Below are positions 2,158 to 37,974 of a DNA stretch of 39,661 bases, in pieces. The position numbers were made by a program, and so were the translations under genes. How positions within the stretch are numbered: the first letter of the stretch is position 1; each line of letters starts with the position of its first letter. The notes beneath the pieces were generated by a model that searched no databases, was not told where the DNA came from, and saw nothing but the letters and a program-made list of their open reading frames with translations. The DNA comes from a bacterium (GTDB lineage Bacteria > Actinomycetota > Acidimicrobiia > Acidimicrobiales > CATQHL01): positions 1-39,661 of the forward strand of contig JAPONU010000285.1 of the NCBI GenBank assembly GCA_026713745.1. Reading direction: 5' to 3'.

Positions 2158-3708
2158 TCAGAAGAGCAGTTGCTCGAATTCGGAAATGGACTCCAACTCG
2201 GGGACCACTCCGAGTGCTCCACCCCCACCGGGGAGGGCATGGGAAGCCACGAGCGGCTCGCTGGCGCTGAAACGCAGCGCGGACGCGCCCTCGGGCAGGC
2301 GATTGGCGAAATCCAGCAGCAGCCTCTGGCGAGGGCGGATCTCAACGTCGCTGAATTCGCCCAGCCGCACCCAGCCGGTGCCGGTGAGCGCCTCCAGGGA
2401 CAGGCGGCTGATCGTTTCCAGAGAGGGGTTCACCAGCGACACCAGGTGCCGGTCGCTGCCGTCGCGCCCCAGCAGGAACACGCCTCGCCGGGTGCCGGCG
2501 GCGCGTCCGGCGAGTATCGAGACCTCGCCCTGCGCACCTGCCTCGACGGTGCGCAACCGCTCTGCGACGACAGCCACGCCGTTGAAGGAACGCACGCTCA
2601 CCCAGTACTTCTCGCTGGGCGGGACGCGACTCGTGGCCGCCACGACGTCGACGCCGGAGACCGGGTGTGCTTTACCGGCCCCCGGCGGGAGGAACGTGAC
2701 TTCGACGCGCTGGCCCGGCGGGACCGTGAGTTCGAACGGCGGCACCCCCCGCGCCTGCAGCGACGCGTCGACCTCGACAGCCAGGTCGACCCTCGCTTCG
2801 AGAGCACTGGGGTTGTAGACGACGAACGAGTTGGCGCCCCCTGCCGAGGCGCCCGCCACTCCCAGCGGGAACAGCCACTGCTCCTCCGGGCGCGGGGACC
2901 CGGCGCGCACCGAGACGCCGGCGAGACCGAGGTCACCGTTGAAGGTCTGCAGCGCAGACGCCAGCAGGCTGCCGCTACGAGCGACCACCGAGAACGAGAC
3001 CTGCTGCCGCCGGGTCACCTCAGTGCCGAGGTCCAGGACCACCAGTGAGCCGGCGGGCACCACCACGCCCTGGTAGGCCACCGGCTCGCGGCGCCCGTCG
3101 TCGGCGGCGAAGGTGAGATCGGCGACCGCGTCATCGGAGAAGGGATTCAGCAAGGACAGCCGCACCCGCGCATCGCGCCGCGTACTGGCCACGGCGAAGT
3201 GCCAATCCGGAGATGTGGCGGTCGGACAGGCTCCGCCATTGCTGGTACCGGCATCGATGACGTCCTGCATCACCACGCCACCGGCGCCGTCGAGACGCAC
3301 CTCGGCGGCAACGAACACCTCAGCGAAACTCGACAGTTCCGGCGCCACCTGCATGACCGTCGCCGCAGGGTCGAAGTCGACACGCGAGTAGGGCGCCACG
3401 ACGAGGTCGACCTGCGCCGCGGGCCACTGCTGGGACTGCCCGCCCAGTGGGATGGCCGCGAATAGGCGCGCGGCGCCGTGGAGTTCGCTCCCCGAGGTGT
3501 TCACGATGCTGACCTGCTGGTTGGATCGGTCGACACCGCTCACGCCACCGACACAGAACCAGCTGTCACCACCGGCAGAGGAGTAGCCCCCGTGGGCGCC
3601 CCCGGCCACGATCTCCGGCGGCTCGGTGGCAACGCTCCGTGCCGCCCAGTCGGTGACCGCAAGCGCCACCACAGCAGCCATCAGAGCCAGGATCGCCGGC
3701 CAACGCAC
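2158..3708 (-). CDS. DUF5719 family membrane-anchored extracytoplasmic protein
   Basis: The 516-residue product has one N-terminal hydrophobic segment (WPAILALMAAVVALAVTDW) followed by a long, cysteine-poor, Ser/Gly/Val-rich region with repeated beta-sandwich-like stretches (for example VSIVNTSGSELHGAARLF and HLVSLVNPSLETISRLSL). This matches the actinobacterial DUF5719 family, which is usually encoded just downstream of a large membrane glycosyltransferase, as here. I chose the GTG at 3708 because GGGAG lies about 7 nt upstream and it gives a clean signal anchor. The track start at 3756 would overlap the glycosyltransferase by 47 bp. The stop of the upstream gene (3710-3712) almost touches this start, so the two are probably translationally coupled. 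A role in cell-envelope glycan assembly is inferred from the neighbourhood only; the biochemical function is unknown. Confidence 0.78.
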   Translation of the reverse strand: MRWPAILALMAAVVALAVTDWAARSVATEPPEIVAGGAHGGYSSAGGDSWFCVGGVSGVDRSNQQVSIVNTSGSELHGAARLFAAIPLGGQSQQWPAAQVDLVVAPYSRVDFDPAATVMQVAPELSSFAEVFVAAEVRLDGAGGVVMQDVIDAGTSNGGACPTATSPDWHFAVASTRRDARVRLSLLNPFSDDAVADLTFAADDGRREPVAYQGVVVPAGSLVVLDLGTEVTRRQQVSFSVVARSGSLLASALQTFNGDLGLAGVSVRAGSPRPEEQWLFPLGVAGASAGGANSFVVYNPSALEARVDLAVEVDASLQARGVPPFELTVPPGQRVEVTFLPPGAGKAHPVSGVDVVAATSRVPPSEKYWVSVRSFNGVAVVAERLRTVEAGAQGEVSILAGRAAGTRRGVFLLGRDGSDRHLVSLVNPSLETISRLSLEALTGTGWVRLGEFSDVEIRPRQRLLLDFANRLPEGASALRFSASEPLVASHALPGGGGALGVVPELESISEFEQLLF

Positions 3709-30451: not shown

Positions 30452-31810
30452 TCAGCCGTACACGGCGGCGAGGGTCGCCTCGCCGTTCACGACCTCGTGC
30501 ACGTAGACGGGCGTGTTCGGCGTCGCTCCCCCGTCGTAGATCAGCGTGCCGGTCAGGCCTTCGACCCCCGTCCCGGCGATGATGGCCTCACCGACGGTGA
30601 CCGGGTCGAGCGAACCGGTGCGGATTACGGCGTCGGCGATGACCAGGATGGCGTCGGCGGCGAGTGCCGAGTACGACTCGCTCTCGGGGGCGACGCCCTT
30701 GACGGCCTGATAGCCGGCGAGGAAGCGGAGCATCCGGCCGTCGGGCTCAGGGAAGGTGTGCGACGTGTGGAAGAACCCCTCGACGCCGTCGACGAAATAG
30801 CCGCCGGTCGCGGTGAAGGCGTCCGCGATGAGCATCTCGGCGTCTACGCCGGCCTCGCCGAGTTGCGCTCCCAGGATCGCCGCCTGGAAGGCGAGCAGCG
30901 CCGAGTAGACGACATCGGGCTGCGGGTCGAGCGCGGCGATCTCATTGACCTGCGCCGAGAAGTCGGTGGTCTGCACAGGCACGAACGGGTAGTCACCCAG
31001 GACGTCGCCGCCGAGTTCTTCGAACTTCTCGGTGAAGACCTCGACGACGTAACCGAAGTACGGCCCCGGAACGCTGAACGTGGCGGCCGTGGTCCAGCCC
31101 CGGCTGATCGCGAACTCGGCTGCCGCCTCCGCCTGCGCGGTGTCGGTGAACGAAGCCAGCAGTGACAGGATCGACGGGTCCGCCAGCAGCGGCTCGGTGG
31201 ACGAGACCGAAATCGTCGGGACCACTCCAGCGGTGATCTGCAGGATCGCCTGGTTGACGTCGAAGAAGGCCGGGCCCAGGATTGCCGTGACGTCCTCGTC
31301 AAGCAGTTCCTGTGCCACACGGCCAGCCGTCTCGGGGTCGCCCTCGATATCGCGGATCACCATCTCGACCGGATGGCCGTCCACGCCGCCCCAGCAGTTG
31401 ACGAGCTCGACGAAGTACTCCGCCGCCGCCGCCGCCGGGATGTCCACGAATCCACCGAGTTCGGAGAAGTCGGCGGCGTAGCCGATCCGCAGGGGTTCGC
31501 CCTGCGGTGCCGCGGCGCAGTCCGCCAGGTCGGCGGCGAGGATCGCGTCGACATCCAGATCCATCGACGCCGCCGGGGCCTCGGACGGCTCCTCGGGCGG
31601 AGCCGGCGCGGGTTCAGGAGGCGGGGCCGGGGCCGGTTCGGCCGGGGGCGGCGCGGGTTCAGGAGGCGGGGCCGGGGCCGGTTCGGCCGGGGGCGGGGGC
31701 GCCGCGGGGGTGCCGGTCGTCTCGCCGTCGTCGCCTGCGCACGCCGCGGCCAGCAGCGCCACCGTCAGCACGACGACGAGCGCCTGGATGATGGTCTTCG
31801 GTGTTCTCAT
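30452..31810 (-). CDS. Substrate-binding lipoprotein of HAAT (LivJ/K-type) ABC importer
   Basis: The 452-residue product has a lipoprotein signal peptide (ALLAAACAGDD, lipobox Cys24), a linker of about 55 residues made of Pro, Ala and Glu, and a type I periplasmic-binding fold (LRIGYAADFSELGGFVDIPA at its start; AILGPAFFDVNQAILQI; TISVSSTEPLLADPS). The lipid anchor holds it outside the cell, and it delivers ligand to LivH/LivM. The start ATG 31810 is supported by AGGGGGA 5 nt upstream. It is encoded 29 bp after an alpha/beta-hydrolase gene and directly before livF. The linker contains a perfect 45-bp tandem repeat. The ligand cannot be read from the sequence; the group includes receptors for amides, amino acids and aromatic acids. 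Confidence 0.9.
   Translation of the reverse strand: MRTPKTIIQALVVVLTVALLAAACAGDDGETTGTPAAPPPPAEPAPAPPPEPAPPPAEPAPAPPPEPAPAPPEEPSEAPAASMDLDVDAILAADLADCAAAPQGEPLRIGYAADFSELGGFVDIPAAAAAEYFVELVNCWGGVDGHPVEMVIRDIEGDPETAGRVAQELLDEDVTAILGPAFFDVNQAILQITAGVVPTISVSSTEPLLADPSILSLLASFTDTAQAEAAAEFAISRGWTTAATFSVPGPYFGYVVEVFTEKFEELGGDVLGDYPFVPVQTTDFSAQVNEIAALDPQPDVVYSALLAFQAAILGAQLGEAGVDAEMLIADAFTATGGYFVDGVEGFFHTSHTFPEPDGRMLRFLAGYQAVKGVAPESESYSALAADAILVIADAVIRTGSLDPVTVGEAIIAGTGVEGLTGTLIYDGGATPNTPVYVHEVVNGEATLAAVYG
31606..31695. repeat. Two copies of a 45-bp tandem repeat in the lipoprotein linker
   Basis: Units 31606-31650 and 31651-31695 are identical and encode a 15-residue Pro/Ala/Glu unit (AEPAPAPPPEPAPPP). 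Unit length is a multiple of three, so copy changes only alter spacer length. A distinct but similar Pro/Ala/Glu linker occurs in the second binding protein. Confidence 0.75.
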
Positions 31811-32887: not shown

Positions 32888-33826
32888 ATGCGGGCCGCCG
32901 CGGTCTTTCAGCGGTACAGGAGCATCGACGACCAGGCAGAGCAACTGACCGGCTTCGATCAGTCCTACCAACAGCTGGATCGCGGCTCGTACCGCGGCGC
33001 GTTCCTGGCGTGCGACGACGAGGAGGTCGGCTTCTTCGTCGAACACACCAACCGGCGACTCGGCCAGCAGGGCGCAGGCCCGGACGGCATGATCAGCGCG
33101 GTCGTCCTGCTCAGCGCCCCGGGTCACTCACTGAACAACGGGTCCACGTTCAGCATGGACGACATCGTGCTGGTGGGATCCGGTGGTGCCTACGAGGCCG
33201 TTATCGACGCGGGGGTCGAGCCGGCGGTCTTCAGCGTCCCCCTGGGGGCGACGACCGCCCTACCACTGCGCCGCCTCTCCGACCAGCAGGCGGGCCGGGT
33301 GCGCCGCATCGCCGATCCAGAACTCAGCAGGAAGTTCCGAGCCGTGGCAGCCAACGCACTGCGATCCTGGGATGCGGCCTCCCAGAGCGTCTCGGTGCCG
33401 CGCTCGGTCGTGCACGCGCTGATGCTCGAGGTGCTCACGGCGCCAAGCGCGGCTGACGGGTCGTCACACGGCTCGATCCAGCTCTACCGGGCAGCACGCG
33501 ACGTCATGGTCGATGCTCTGACGGTGTCGCTGCCGGTTCCCGAGGTCGCCTCGCGGGTGGGGTCGTCCCGCCGTACCCTTGAGCAGGCCTTCGACACCTG
33601 CGTCTCGGTGAGCCCTGCCCGCTTCCACAAGCTGCTGAGGCTCAACAACGCCCGCCGGCTGCTCGAGAGCGGGCGACATTCCGTGAGCCGGAGCGCCACC
33701 AGCAGCGGCCTGCACCACCTCGGTCGGTTCTCGAGCGACTACCACGAGTTGTTCGGCGAGTTGCCCTCGGAGACCGCGCTACGCGCCAAGGTGCTCATCG
33801 CAGACCCGGCGCCGGCCGGCGTCTGA
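32888..33826 (+). CDS. AraC-family transcriptional regulator
   Basis: The 312-residue product has an N-terminal ligand/sensing part (DQSYQQLDRGSYRGAFLACD, resembling the AraC-binding-like cupin domain; FSVPLGATTALPL) and a C-terminal double helix-turn-helix. Its first recognition part is LPVPEVASRVGSSRRTLEQA, followed by FDTCVSVSPARFHKLLRLNN and ARRLL, with a second helix pair around GLHHLGRFSSDYHELFGELP. This matches the AraC/XylS C-terminal domain. It is divergent from the hydrolase/Liv importer operon and probably controls it. Its own promoter is a near-consensus leaderless element. It ends 54 bp before a patch of gene remnants. Confidence 0.88.
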   Translation: MRAAAVFQRYRSIDDQAEQLTGFDQSYQQLDRGSYRGAFLACDDEEVGFFVEHTNRRLGQQGAGPDGMISAVVLLSAPGHSLNNGSTFSMDDIVLVGSGGAYEAVIDAGVEPAVFSVPLGATTALPLRRLSDQQAGRVRRIADPELSRKFRAVAANALRSWDAASQSVSVPRSVVHALMLEVLTAPSAADGSSHGSIQLYRAARDVMVDALTVSLPVPEVASRVGSSRRTLEQAFDTCVSVSPARFHKLLRLNNARRLLESGRHSVSRSATSSGLHHLGRFSSDYHELFGELPSETALRAKVLIADPAPAGV

Positions 33827-33880: not shown

Positions 33881-34058
33881 TCAGGTTGCCGCGGCCCGGG
33901 GTGCGGGCTCGGGCGCGCTCCAGTCCTGCGGGATCGAGGAGAAATCGAAGAACGGCTCGACGTCACCGCCGGTCACCGCCTCGGCGATCTGCGCATAGAA
34001 CCCTTGCCCGGTCACCGCCTCGGCGATCTGCGCATAGAACCCTTGCCCGGTCTCGAAG
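33881..34058 (-). pseudogene. C-terminal remnant of an unrecognised protein with duplicated 13-residue unit
   Basis: The minus-strand frame reads TGQGFYAQIAEAV twice and then TGGDVEPFFDFSSIPQDWSA, ending PEPAPRAAAT. The last part has coding-like composition and looks like a natural protein end, but beyond about 34058 the frame is antisense to an Lrp-like fragment. It is the 3' end of a lost gene. The family is not recognised. The 127-residue track ORF is not taken as a gene. Confidence 0.45.
33971..34048. repeat. Perfect 39-bp tandem duplication
   Basis: Units 33971-34009 and 34010-34048 are identical, with a partial third copy (GGTC) after them. Thirty-nine bp keeps the minus-strand frame (13 residues). 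Its perfection suggests a recent slippage or repair event at the junction of two gene remnants. Confidence 0.85.
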
Positions 34059-34084
34059 GCGACGTGTTGGCAGGAGTGATCGCC

Positions 34085-34270
34085 ATGTCGCTCACCGGGC
34101 GCGGCGACCTTCTCGTGCGGGTCGTGGCACCGACCAACGACGACCTCCACGAGATCCTGCAGCAGATCGCCGCCATCGACGAAGTGCGCCGCACCGAGAC
34201 GCTGCTCGCCCTGCACACCTCCCTGACACGCAGCAGCGCCGACCTCGTCGCCGCGGGCACCCACCCCTGA
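34085..34270 (+). pseudogene. Lrp/AsnC ligand-binding (RAM) domain fragment
   Basis: From ATG 34085 the 61-residue frame reads MSLTGRGDLLVRVVAPTNDD, LHEILQQIAAIDEVRRTETL and LALHTSL. It matches the second half of the RAM/AsnC effector domain (G-x-Y-D-L-L-V-R-V ... V-R-R-T-E-T). AGGAG lies 8 nt upstream, so it could be translated. The helix-turn-helix and the first strand-helix of the RAM domain are missing, and sequence upstream of about 34045 belongs to another gene remnant. The simplest reading is a 3' relic of an Lrp-type regulator; a stand-alone RAM-like mini-protein is the alternative. Confidence 0.6.
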
Positions 34271-34290: not shown

Positions 34291-35253
34291 CTACGGGGAA
34301 GCCGAGAACGCCGTCCGGCGGGCGTCGCTGGGGGTGGTGCCGTAGGCCTCGGCGAAGCAGCGCGAGAAGTGTGCCGGGGACTTGAAGCCGTGGCTGAAGG
34401 CGATGTCGGTGATGGTCTTGGCGCGGTGCTGGCCCGAGACGAGGTCGTCGCGGCAGCGGGCCAGGCGGCGGCGCATGAGGTAGGTGGTGACCGTCGTGTT
34501 GTGGTCCCGGAATAGTTGGTGGAGGTAGCGCAGCGAGACGCCGATGGAGGAGGCGATGCGGGCCGGATCCAGGTCGGGGTCGTCGGCATAGGCGTTGATG
34601 TAGGTGCAGGCCCGCAGGAAATGCTTGGTGCCGCTGGACCCCGGCGCCATCGCATCGCCGAAATGGTCCGCCAGCGCCACGCCGAGTAGATCGAGGGCGC
34701 TCGTGGCGAGTTGGCGCGACACGGCGTTCTCCTCACCGGAGGCGAAGGGCTCCAGCGAGCGCAGGAACGACGAGACCGGGGCGGTCACGTTGCCGTCGCT
34801 GCGCATGCGCACCGCGGTCAGCGGTTCGGGAAACGGGCAGCGTTCCAGCAGGAACTGCCGGTCGAACTGCAGCACGAGCATGTCGAACTCTTCGGGCATG
34901 ACGAGGTTGTACGGCCGGGTGGTGTCATAGAGCGCGAAGTCGCCCGCCTCCAGGACAGCCTGACGGTCATCCTGGATCACGACCCCGACACCGCTGAGTT
35001 GCAGCGAGACGAGCACCTCATCGCGGGGTTCGGTGCTGATCAGCGACGGGGAGCGGTGGACCGTGTGAGGCTGCGCGTGCACCCGGCTGAGCGCCAGCAC
35101 GCCCAGATCGCTGCTGGAGATCTGGGCCTGGAAGGGTTGCTCGGAAGGCAGCGCCTCGGCCTCGAGCCGCACGAACGCCGAGCAGATGACCTCGTGCCAG
35201 AAATCGAAGCGATCCCGGCCGGCGACCGTCTCGGTGTTCGCTGTTGTGACCAC
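34291..35253 (-). CDS. AraC-family transcriptional regulator, NitR-like, divergent from the nitrilase
   Basis: The 320-residue product has an N-terminal AraC-binding-like domain (RDRFDFWHEVICSAFVRLEA; DDRQAVLEAGDFALYDTTRP with YNLVMPEEFDMLVLQFDRQF) and a C-terminal AraC helix-turn-helix pair (IASSIGVSLRYLHQLFRDHN; ITDIAFSHGFKSPAHFSRCF then AEAYGTTPSDARR). The layout equals that of NitR-type activators of nitrilase genes. The GTG start at 35253 is supported by GGGAGG 5 nt upstream; the track start at 35661 runs over the nitrilase promoter. A tandem 27-bp repeat holding the palindrome CGCTGCAGCG lies between this gene and the nitrilase and is a candidate binding site. It probably activates nitrilase and transporter expression in response to a nitrile or amide. 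Confidence 0.88.
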   Translation of the reverse strand: MVTTANTETVAGRDRFDFWHEVICSAFVRLEAEALPSEQPFQAQISSSDLGVLALSRVHAQPHTVHRSPSLISTEPRDEVLVSLQLSGVGVVIQDDRQAVLEAGDFALYDTTRPYNLVMPEEFDMLVLQFDRQFLLERCPFPEPLTAVRMRSDGNVTAPVSSFLRSLEPFASGEENAVSRQLATSALDLLGVALADHFGDAMAPGSSGTKHFLRACTYINAYADDPDLDPARIASSIGVSLRYLHQLFRDHNTTVTTYLMRRRLARCRDDLVSGQHRAKTITDIAFSHGFKSPAHFSRCFAEAYGTTPSDARRTAFSASP

Positions 35254-35340
35254 CTGGGCCTCCCGACCTGTGCCGGGAGGAACGTTCTCCCAGCGCAGAA
35301 GAGAGTGCACTCTGAGACAAGAGATTAGACGCTGTAAGGA

Positions 35341-35370
35341 TTGAAGCCCTCGCGGGCCCCTTCGTAGCGT
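35341..35370 (+). promoter_or_regulatory. Promoter of the leader ORF / nitrilase operon
   Basis: TTGAAG (35341-35346), an 18-nt spacer, TAGCGT (35365-35370), then 7 nt to an ATG at 35378. It has the same -10 box and spacer length as the promoter at 32852. Transcription would start on or beside that ATG. Confidence 0.6.
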
Positions 35371-35377
35371 GCTGAAC

Positions 35378-35518
35378 ATGGTGGAGAGAACCGCCACGCT
35401 TCGCTGCAGCGCACCGCCCGCCACGCTTCGCTGCAGCGCACCGCCCGCCACGCGCCGCATGCGACCCGGGGAAACCTCGCCGGGTGGCCCTCCTCGGTCG
35501 GTCAACCCGCATCGGTGA
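35378..35518 (+). CDS. Candidate 46-residue leader peptide upstream of the nitrilase
   Basis: This frame is too short for the ORF track. It starts at an ATG 7 nt after a TAGCGT -10 box (leaderless position), reads MVERTATLRCSAPPATLRCS and continues with a second ATLRCSAPP copy, then a Pro/Arg/Gly tail ending VNPHR and a TGA at 35516-35518. The TGA abuts the nitrilase ribosome-binding site (TGAAGGAG), 10 nt before the nitrilase ATG, so its translation would end exactly where nitrilase translation begins. It could couple or attenuate expression. No homologue is known to me, and it may equally be a chance frame through an operator repeat. Confidence 0.4.
   Translation: MVERTATLRCSAPPATLRCSAPPATRRMRPGETSPGGPPRSVNPHR
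35393..35453. repeat. 27-bp tandem repeat (2.3 copies) in the nitrilase upstream region
   Basis: Units 35393-35419 and 35420-35446 are identical, followed by 7 nt of a third. Each holds the perfect palindrome CGCTGCAGCG. It lies downstream of the predicted promoter, between the AraC-type gene and the nitrilase. AraC regulators often bind direct repeats, but the position inside the transcript and the frame-keeping unit also fit a coding repeat. Confidence 0.8.
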
Positions 35519-35528
35519 AGGAGTCGCC

Positions 35529-36560
35529 ATGACTGCAGCCGCCCCGTTCGTCGCCGCCGCAGTGCAGGCGGAGCCGTGCTGGCTCGAAGTGGACGCCGGA
35601 GTCGAGAAGGCTGCCGGTCTGATCGCCGAGGCGGCGGCCAACGATGCCCGGCTCGTGGCATTCCCCGAGACGTGGATTCCCGGTTACCCGCACTTCCTGT
35701 GGCTGGGGTCGCAGGCCTGGGGCATGCAGTTCGTTCAGCGCTTCCACGAGAACTCCGTCACCGTCGGTGACGAGGCGTTCCAGCGGCTCGCCCGGGCGGC
35801 CGCCGACAACGACATCGCTGTGGTGTTCGGCGCCAGCGAGAGGGACCGGGGGTCGCTGTACATGGCGTAGTTCGCCTTCGGCGCCGACGGCGAGGTGCTG
35901 TTCGCGCGCCGCAAGCTGAAGCCCACCCACGTGGAGCGCGCCCTGTTCGGCCAGGGCGACGGCAGCCACCTGCACGTGCAGGACGTGGACGGCATCGGCC
36001 GGCTCGGGGCGTTGAACTGCTGGGAGCACCTGCAGCCGCTCACCAAGTTCGCGATGTACAGCCAGGGCGAGCAGGTGCACGTGGCGAGCTGGCCCTCGTT
36101 CTGCCTCTACCGCGGGCTGGCCAATGCCCTCGACATCGACGTGAACATGAACGCCACGCAGGTGTACGCGGTGGAGGGCTCGTGCTTCACGATCGCCGCG
36201 ACCACCGTGACCGGCGAGGCCGGGCTGGACCTGTTCTGCCAGGATGACGAGCAGCGTGCCCTGCTGGGCGGGGCCGGTGGCGGCGGCAGCAGCCGCATCT
36301 ACGCCCCCGACGGGCGGATCGTCTCGAACCTCCTGGACGAGCACAGCGAGGGAATCGTCTACGCCGAGATCGACCTGTCGCTGATCCCCCTGTCGAAGGT
36401 CGCCCAGGACCCAAGCGGCCACTACTCGCGCCCCGACGTGACCCGGTTGGTCTTCGATCCCCGACCGCAGCCGACCGTGGAGATCGTCGGCGCCGAGTTC
36501 GCCGCGCCGCGTGACGACGACGAGGCACTCGAGGAACTTCCACAGCCCGCAACGGCCTGA
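35529..36560 (+). pseudogene. Nitrilase interrupted by a single in-frame TAG (codon 114)
   Basis: Nitrilases hydrolyse nitriles to carboxylates and ammonia. The full frame (343 positions) starts at ATG 35529 with GAAGGAG 5 nt upstream. It has the catalytic triad Glu47 (FPETWIPGYPHF), Lys129 (ARRKLKPTHVE) and Cys164 (LGALNCWEHLQPL), and normal family length. TAG at 35868-35870 interrupts it in RGSLYMA*FAFGADGEVLF, where relatives usually have Gln, so one C-to-T change from CAG explains it. Both track ORFs (35484-35870 and 35895-36560) lie in the same frame and nothing else is damaged. UAG ends several other genes here, so recoding is unlikely. It is either a fresh nonsense mutation, a sequencing error, or weak readthrough. 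The binding-protein gene follows 34 bp later. Confidence 0.85.
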
Positions 36561-36594: not shown

Positions 36595-37974
36595 ATGAGG
36601 CAACACACACGCAGGCGCCGCCTGCTCTTCCCGACGGTACTCGCCGCCATCGTTCTGCTGGTGGCCGCCTGCGCCTCGGACGACGAGGGGGCCGCCGAGC
36701 CGCCGGCCCCGGCTCCCGTCCCGACGCCCGCCACCGAGGCCGAGGCGGCACCGGAGCCCGCGCCGCCCCCTGCGGGGGCCGAGCCCGCCGCCGAGCCCGA
36801 AGCTGCTCCACCGCCGCCGACCGAACCGGGGGCCGCGCCCGAACCTCCACCCCCACCTCCGGCCGAACCGGCGGCACCCGCCGAGGCGACCGGCGAGCCG
36901 ATCCGGGTCGGAAACATCAGCTCCCTGACCGGCGGCGCGCTGTTCCCTGAGGCCTCTGAGGCGGCCAAGGCTGTCTTCGACCGCGTCAACGCCGCAGGCG
37001 GTATCGGCGGGCGCCCGATCGAACTGATCATCGAGGATGACGGCGGGACGCCCGAGGGCGCCGCCACCGCAGCCCGCAAGCTCGTGGAGCAGGATGACGT
37101 GGTGGCCATGGTGGGCTCGGCCAGCACGCTGGAGTGCGTGGTCAATACCGGTCTCTACGCCGAGGCCGGTGTCTATTCGATTCAGGGCACCGGCGTGGAC
37201 CCGCTGTGCTTCCTGTCGCCGAACATCTCGCCGGTCAACACCGGCCCCTACGCCGGCATCACGGTGTCGCTGTTCTACGCCTCCGAGACCCTCGGCTTCG
37301 AGAATGTCTGCAACGTGAACCTGTTCGTGGTGCCCGACCTGGCCCCGGCCTTCGACGCCGCCGTGGCCCGCTGGGAGGAATTGACCGGCAAGTCGCTGGC
37401 CTTCCGGATTGCCGCCGCCACCCTGCAGGACGACCCGACGCCGCTGATGCTGCAGGCCCGGGACGCCGGCTGCCAGGCGGTCGTCATCGACGGTGTGGAG
37501 CCGCACGCTCTGGCCGTGGGGCGGGCCATCGAGGCGCAGGGGCTGGGCGACATCACCTGGATCGGCCTCACCTCGTATTACACGGACGCCATCGCCGGCC
37601 AGCTCGGCAGCGCCGGCAACGGCCTCCAGGCCAACTCCGAGTTCGAGCCGTACGGCTCCACGTCGCCCGTGCTGGACGACTGGCGCCAGCTCATGATCGA
37701 CAGCGACGTGGCGCTCACATCCTTCGCCCAGGGCGGCTACCTGGCGGCCACGATCTTCGCTGAAGTGCTTCAGGGCATCGACGGCGAGATCAGCCGTGAG
37801 TCGGTGGGCGCGGCGCTGCTCGCCCTGGACCGCTACGACACGCCGCTGCTCGGAACCCCCTACTCGTTCGGTGATGCGCCGATTCACGCACCGAACCAGG
37901 CCAGCAAGTTCGTGGTGCTCCAGGACGGCGCCTGGGTGACCGCTCTCGACGAATGGGTCGTACTGCCGAACTGA
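36595..37974 (+). CDS. Substrate-binding lipoprotein of a second HAAT (LivJ/K-type) ABC importer
   Basis: The 459-residue product has a lipoprotein signal (RRRRLLFPTVLAAIVLLVAA then CAS; lipobox Cys26), a linker of about 70 residues of Pro/Ala/Glu, and a type I periplasmic-binding fold starting IRVGNISSLTGGALFPEASE, with FDRVNAAGGIGGRPIELIIE and VAMVGSASTLECV. The ATG 36595 has GAGGA 4 nt upstream; the track start at 36511 overlaps the nitrilase end. Gene order nitrilase-SBP-LivH-LivM suggests that the ligand is a nitrile, amide or the acid product. It resembles the first binding protein (30452-31810) in layout but is clearly a different sequence. Confidence 0.9.
   Translation: MRQHTRRRRLLFPTVLAAIVLLVAACASDDEGAAEPPAPAPVPTPATEAEAAPEPAPPPAGAEPAAEPEAAPPPPTEPGAAPEPPPPPPAEPAAPAEATGEPIRVGNISSLTGGALFPEASEAAKAVFDRVNAAGGIGGRPIELIIEDDGGTPEGAATAARKLVEQDDVVAMVGSASTLECVVNTGLYAEAGVYSIQGTGVDPLCFLSPNISPVNTGPYAGITVSLFYASETLGFENVCNVNLFVVPDLAPAFDAAVARWEELTGKSLAFRIAAATLQDDPTPLMLQARDAGCQAVVIDGVEPHALAVGRAIEAQGLGDITWIGLTSYYTDAIAGQLGSAGNGLQANSEFEPYGSTSPVLDDWRQLMIDSDVALTSFAQGGYLAATIFAEVLQGIDGEISRESVGAALLALDRYDTPLLGTPYSFGDAPIHAPNQASKFVVLQDGAWVTALDEWVVLPN

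Follow-up and report, generated by a model that had tools for sequence, protein, structure and literature searches.

The nitrilase locus

The window, by which we mean the whole 39.7-kb stretch of DNA analysed here, belongs to a draft genome of 3.79 Mb that is divided among 635 contigs, of which it forms one. Metagenome-assembled genomes make up its nearest relatives within the collection; several carry the label Acidimicrobiia or Acidimicrobiales, and one is Candidatus Poriferisocius. To judge from such names the source, an uncultured actinobacterium, is probably sponge-associated. A nitrilase frame of the CN_hydrolase type (35529-36560, plus strand) is followed by genes for a branched-chain amino-acid type ABC transporter, comprising a substrate-binding protein (36595-37974, plus strand) and permeases, and this downstream operon is syntenic with the nitrilase in relatives. 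Upstream, on the minus strand, lies an intact gene (34291-35253) encoding an AraC/FeaR-like regulator with AraC_binding_2 and HTH_18 domains, whose GTG start is preceded by GGGAGG. The two divergent genes are separated by 275 bp, and the stretch under study is the control region of the nitrilase gene. Among NCBIfam models the regulator is closest to FeaR, below the cut-off. An AraC-family gene adjoins many nitrilases, and orthologues of this particular regulator in genus relatives are 91% identical and also divergent to the nitrilase.

The comparisons that follow draw on ten orthologous loci, namely the window, L005, L012 to L018, and L019. L005 and L013 are nearly identical, so that the number of independent lineages is small, and a search of 395 genomes across the class found no further close orthologue beyond those already known.

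A conserved operator-like box and promoter

The comparison brings out a conserved operator-like box at 35306-35343 on the plus strand, composed of the half-sites TGCACTCTGAGACAAG (35306-35321) and GACGCTGTAAGGATTG (35328-35343), which are 22 bp apart, with the second located at the -35 region. In the leader alignment the box follows a TGCRCTnnnAGACAARAnAYTACACGCTnnCAGGGAA-like pattern. When the box is matched to itself at shifts of 10 to 33, the best shift is 22 (82 summed matches) and the next is 20 (74), and the resemblance between half-sites is modest, at 7-11 of 16 positions. It occurs once in its own genome, and is present in the nine loci with an orthologous divergent AraC gene (the window, L005 and L012-L018), with a weaker version in L019. 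Across the compared nitrilase loci, box scores are 57-69 for orthologues, about 20 for L019 and below -14 for the others, the high scores of the orthologues being a product of construction because the scoring matrix was built from them. At L019 the box is retained upstream of position 3001, yet no AraC/FeaR relative was found in that locus. L017 carries a second, weaker copy (TGCGCTTACAGACAAGAGACTAAGCGT, at 2810-2850) upstream of the main one.

Downstream of the box, the hexamer TAGCGT (35365-35370, plus strand) is the putative -10 element, an assignment that follows from its fixed position: a -10 lies 58-59 nt from the start of the box in all ten loci, and conforms to TAnnnT in nine. The sequence-only reading had a promoter place the transcription start on the ATG at 35378, and the fixed -10 lends weight to that placement, whereas a scan of the stretch with the sigma-70 consensus returned no promoter. 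The second half-site extends to where a -35, here a poor one, would stand, an arrangement usual for AraC-family activators, and the box and -10 at fixed spacing are as expected for a divergent AraC/FeaR-like activator. The comparison makes the operator and promoter assignments highly probable, and defines closely a candidate operator, open to experiment, for the FeaR-like regulator of a nitrilase. A literature search for FeaR sites yielded nothing useful.

An ATG at the predicted transcription start

From the spacing, and from statistics on genus DNA, transcription is predicted to start on the plus strand at the A of the ATG at 35378, 7 nt after the -10. An ATG stands exactly 72 nt from the start of the box in seven of the ten loci (the window, L005, L012, L013, L014, L015 and L016); it falls one codon later in L017 and is absent from L018 and L019. 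The seven represent only two lineages, and the leaders behind the ATG cannot be aligned between the two clades, but common descent could explain part of the conservation. The block around the start (35377-35401) is identical to that of L012 at 22 of 25 positions, as against 40 of 83 in the remaining leader.

The spacing itself is a common one in the genus. In 340 kb, made up of 300 kb of the relative G002 and the window, TAnnnT ends 6-8 nt before an in-frame ATG or GTG in 24 cases (8 per spacing), roughly a tenfold enrichment over the background of about 0.8 per spacing at 2-5 and 11-19 nt, with 2 and 7 cases at 6-8 nt for the control codons CTG and ATC. This enrichment argues that genes of the genus often have leaderless-type starts, and because the distance between the -10 and the ATG is typical of such starts, a leaderless small ORF at 35378 becomes plausible; on these comparisons we consider leaderless use of this ATG somewhat more probable than its disuse. 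The ATG is not a requirement of the regulated promoter, since L017, L018 and L019 keep the promoter without an ATG at +1. Elsewhere in the window, at 32888, the ATG of another AraC-family gene lies 6 nt after a TAGCGT, a leaderless-type start.

A short upstream frame and the start of the nitrilase

The ATG at 35378 opens a leaderless-type small ORF of 46 codons, MVERTATLRCSAPPATLRCSAPPATRRMRPGETSPGGPPRSVNPHR (35378-35518, plus strand), and the existence of this frame, its possible leaderless nature, and the overlap of its stop with the ribosome-binding site of the nitrilase were all correctly recognised from the sequence alone. The overlap consists of one base shared by the TGA (35516-35518) and the Shine-Dalgarno sequence AAGGAG (35518-35523, plus strand), the latter kept in genus relatives and followed by the nitrilase start at 35529. 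The length of the frame was rejected as evidence: the stretch has a GC content of 73%, only one of its six frames is closed, and chance suffices for 45 further open codons, with a probability of 0.40-0.73. Conservation within the genus covers roughly the first 8 codons, and past these opening codons a comparison of peptides across the leaders found no common run. Leader peptides vary from 46 codons in the window to 40 in L005, L012 and L013, 21 in L014, 16 in L017, and 14 in L015 and L016, and substitutions in the leader among relatives (4-5 nonsynonymous and 4 synonymous) give no clear sign of coding constraint.

What is kept in some relatives is the junction with the nitrilase. In L005, L012, L013 and L014 the stop of the frame is the TGA of an ATGA at the nitrilase start, the "coupled" arrangement known from leaderless small ORFs of mycobacteria. 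The leader tail of the window is shifted in frame, and its stop lies 10 nt before the nitrilase ATG without ATGA coupling; in L015 and L016 the stop lies 17 nt before the start. The window therefore lacks the RTGA stop/start overlap of the "coupled" subclass of leaderless ORFs and fits the uORF subclass only. The translation-coupling layout proposed for this leader is thus found in four relatives and weakened in the genome in which it was proposed, and the junctions make translation coupling in the relatives suggestive, if a little short of an even prospect.

These observations bear on a rival account, in which the same AraC-activated promoter produces a plain 5' leader and the ATG at +1, inherited or coincidental, is never translated. 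Such a leader would accommodate the divergence of the peptide, the open frame that is trivial at this GC content, and the three loci that retain box and -10 with no ATG at +1. It accounts poorly for an ATG that falls precisely on +1 in both lineages, given that their leaders are otherwise unalignable, for the conserved start block, and for the frequency of leaderless-type starts in the genus. We regard the untranslated leader as a serious contender of lesser probability, somewhere around one third.

The 27-bp repeat

Within the small ORF lies a 27-bp tandem duplication of 2.3 copies (35391-35453), bounded by CCGCCACGC microhomology at 35391, 35418 and 35445. The copies at 35391-35417 and 35418-35444 are 100% identical and the third is partial; the repeat keeps the reading frame, 27 bp being nine codons, and, as the sequence-only reading had noted, it encodes ATLRCSAPP twice and contains palindromes, CGCTGCAGCG, which stand one in each copy and at no other position of the window. 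That the repeat might be an element dispersed through the genome was rejected, as a scan of its own genome with a pattern of 21 bases and a tolerance of 3 mismatches found these two copies only, in a single place. Nor was the repeat found in any of the orthologous leaders, and the leader minus one copy has about the length of its relatives there, with one extra codon. Microhomology of the CCGCCACGC kind is used by slippage, and perfect tandem duplications are not confined to this site, there being two others in the window and several in the 300 kb of G002. Restriction to this genome, microhomology at the borders, and similar duplications in the window and G002 together indicate an ordinary, recent local duplication. 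The repeat shows no sign of function, and its palindromes arose along with the duplication.

Other repeats in the window include a perfect 39-bp tandem duplication of 2.2 copies (33969-34052) where a partial Lrp/AsnC-type frame (34004-34270) begins, and repeats of period 45 (31593-31696) and period 42 (36779-36875). The latter two fall in the Pro/Ala-rich linker behind the lipoprotein signal in two binding-protein genes (30452-31810, minus strand, and 36595-37974, plus strand).

Two functional roles had been proposed for the repeat, and neither is supported by the comparison. One holds that the palindromes are binding sites for the neighbouring AraC-type regulator, an idea encouraged by the adjacent and divergent position of that gene and by the putative NitR site of PnitA, reported to span, as a palindrome, both the -35 and untranslated sequence (PMC6265244). 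Genus relatives with a 91% identical AraC protein lack palindromes and repeat, yet all of them keep the different box at 35306-35343, upstream of the -10, and the palindromes would fall downstream of the transcription start; a role as operator is very improbable. The suggestion that nitrilase loci be compared for palindrome spacing as against frame found no palindromes in relatives to compare, and for the frame it found a start position kept in seven of ten loci with a peptide that is not conserved.

The other role is that of an attenuation or stalling peptide, whose ATLRCSAPP repeats, as they are translated, would sense a metabolite or amino acid and set the expression of the nitrilase. In its favour are a small ORF that precedes a catabolic gene and a repeat that preserves the frame. 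The repeat is, however, missing from every relative, the peptide is not conserved and has no run of regulatory codons, a search of the leader found no terminator, and the folds of the leader are no better than those of shuffled sequences (z of +0.4, +1.0 and +2.1). Rfam holds no family that matches the leader, and on this ground, together with the ordinary folds, a structured RNA or riboswitch was rejected. With no terminator, no unusual fold and no Rfam family, attenuation is unsupported, and we consider it extremely improbable.

An in-frame stop in the nitrilase

The nitrilase had been called from the sequence alone, and the CN_hydrolase frame bears out that call, but an in-frame TAG at codon 114 (35868-35870) had been overlooked. 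This codon is CAG in L012 and L013, and Gln in all seven aligned orthologues. As assembled, the sequence would encode a truncated enzyme, by mutation or assembly error, and the product would end before the conserved Lys129 and Cys164, both downstream of the TAG, which in alignment match the Lys and Cys that serve catalysis in this family. As one isolated stop within a frame of ordinary character, the TAG gives little reason to suspect a recoded codon. A TAG inside the match in L007 is merely the end of that gene.

The stop raises the possibility that the locus is decaying or mis-assembled, with both the TAG and the duplication of 27 bp being either mistakes of assembly or early steps towards loss of this nitrilase. 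The fragmented draft, the absence of ATGA coupling from the window, and a stop where all seven aligned orthologues have Gln would be in keeping with this. Changes on the window branch 3' of the TAG are nonetheless mostly synonymous (13 nonsynonymous and 29 synonymous), which indicates that the stop is very recent or an assembly error, and, with the AraC gene intact, any loss must be very recent; the existence of similar perfect tandem duplications in the related G002 also speaks against this reading. We consider decay or mis-assembly rather unlikely, and it is in any case compatible with the reading of the promoter and small ORF given below.

A model for expression of the nitrilase

The explanation that we favour, by a modest measure and from comparison of sequences, is an AraC-family-activated nitrilase promoter followed by a small upstream ORF of the leaderless type. 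Presumably in response to an inducer related to nitriles, the divergent AraC/FeaR-like protein would bind the two direct half-sites at 35306-35343 near the -35 and recruit RNA polymerase to the -10 at 35365-35370. The RNA would begin at or beside the ATG at 35378, so that ribosomes could load on the bare 5' end and translate the short frame, the sequence of the peptide being immaterial. Ribosomes that stop in the region of the nitrilase start would then add to Shine-Dalgarno initiation there. In the genome of the window, a slippage-type duplication of 27 bp and other indels would have made the leader longer, so that the stop now falls 10 nt short of the nitrilase ATG. A broader proposal, that in this group of Acidimicrobiia selection has kept an AUG at an AraC-controlled start site, independently of the peptide, because it loads ribosomes and so couples translation to that of the induced nitrilase gene, is speculative and, at present, doubtful.

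Comparison with known systems

Amino-acid attenuation leaders resemble this locus in that a metabolic operon opens, at its 5' end, with a small frame, but differ in the run of regulatory codons, terminator, alternative fold and conserved peptide that are lacking here. A closer parallel for the promoter is NitR, an AraC/XylS-family protein of Alcaligenes faecalis that activates nitA from a start site 74 bp upstream (PMC6265244). In both systems an AraC-family gene stands beside a nitrilase gene, a site, a candidate one here, lies over the -35, and transcription starts tens of bases before the start codon, at 74 bp for nitA and, by prediction, at 151 here. Unlike NitR, the present regulator is closest to FeaR (below the NCBIfam cut-off), and its predicted site consists of direct half-sites upstream of the -10 rather than a palindrome.

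For the small ORF, the precedent is in mycobacteria, where an RTGA overlap couples leaderless small ORFs to the gene that follows (Shell et al. 2015, PMC4633059), conservation is stronger for this linkage than for the peptide, and cysteine-rich leaderless uORFs have been suggested as attenuation leader peptides (PMC4633059). The locus resembles these ORFs in the ATG at the predicted 5' end of the RNA after a TAnnnT -10, in its short, unannotated frame, in an architecture kept while the peptide diverges, and, in L005, L012, L013 and L014, in the ATGA overlap with the next start. It differs in that the stop in the window lies ahead of the next start, as in a uORF and not a "coupled" ORF, that the host class is Acidimicrobiia, and that the 5' end is a prediction from sequence. 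The 27-bp repeat that drew attention to the region is itself unremarkable; if the leaderless frame is used, peptide-independent leaderless coupling of the mycobacterial kind would reach into an actinobacterial class that is uncultured, and would take in a catabolic gene under inducible control.
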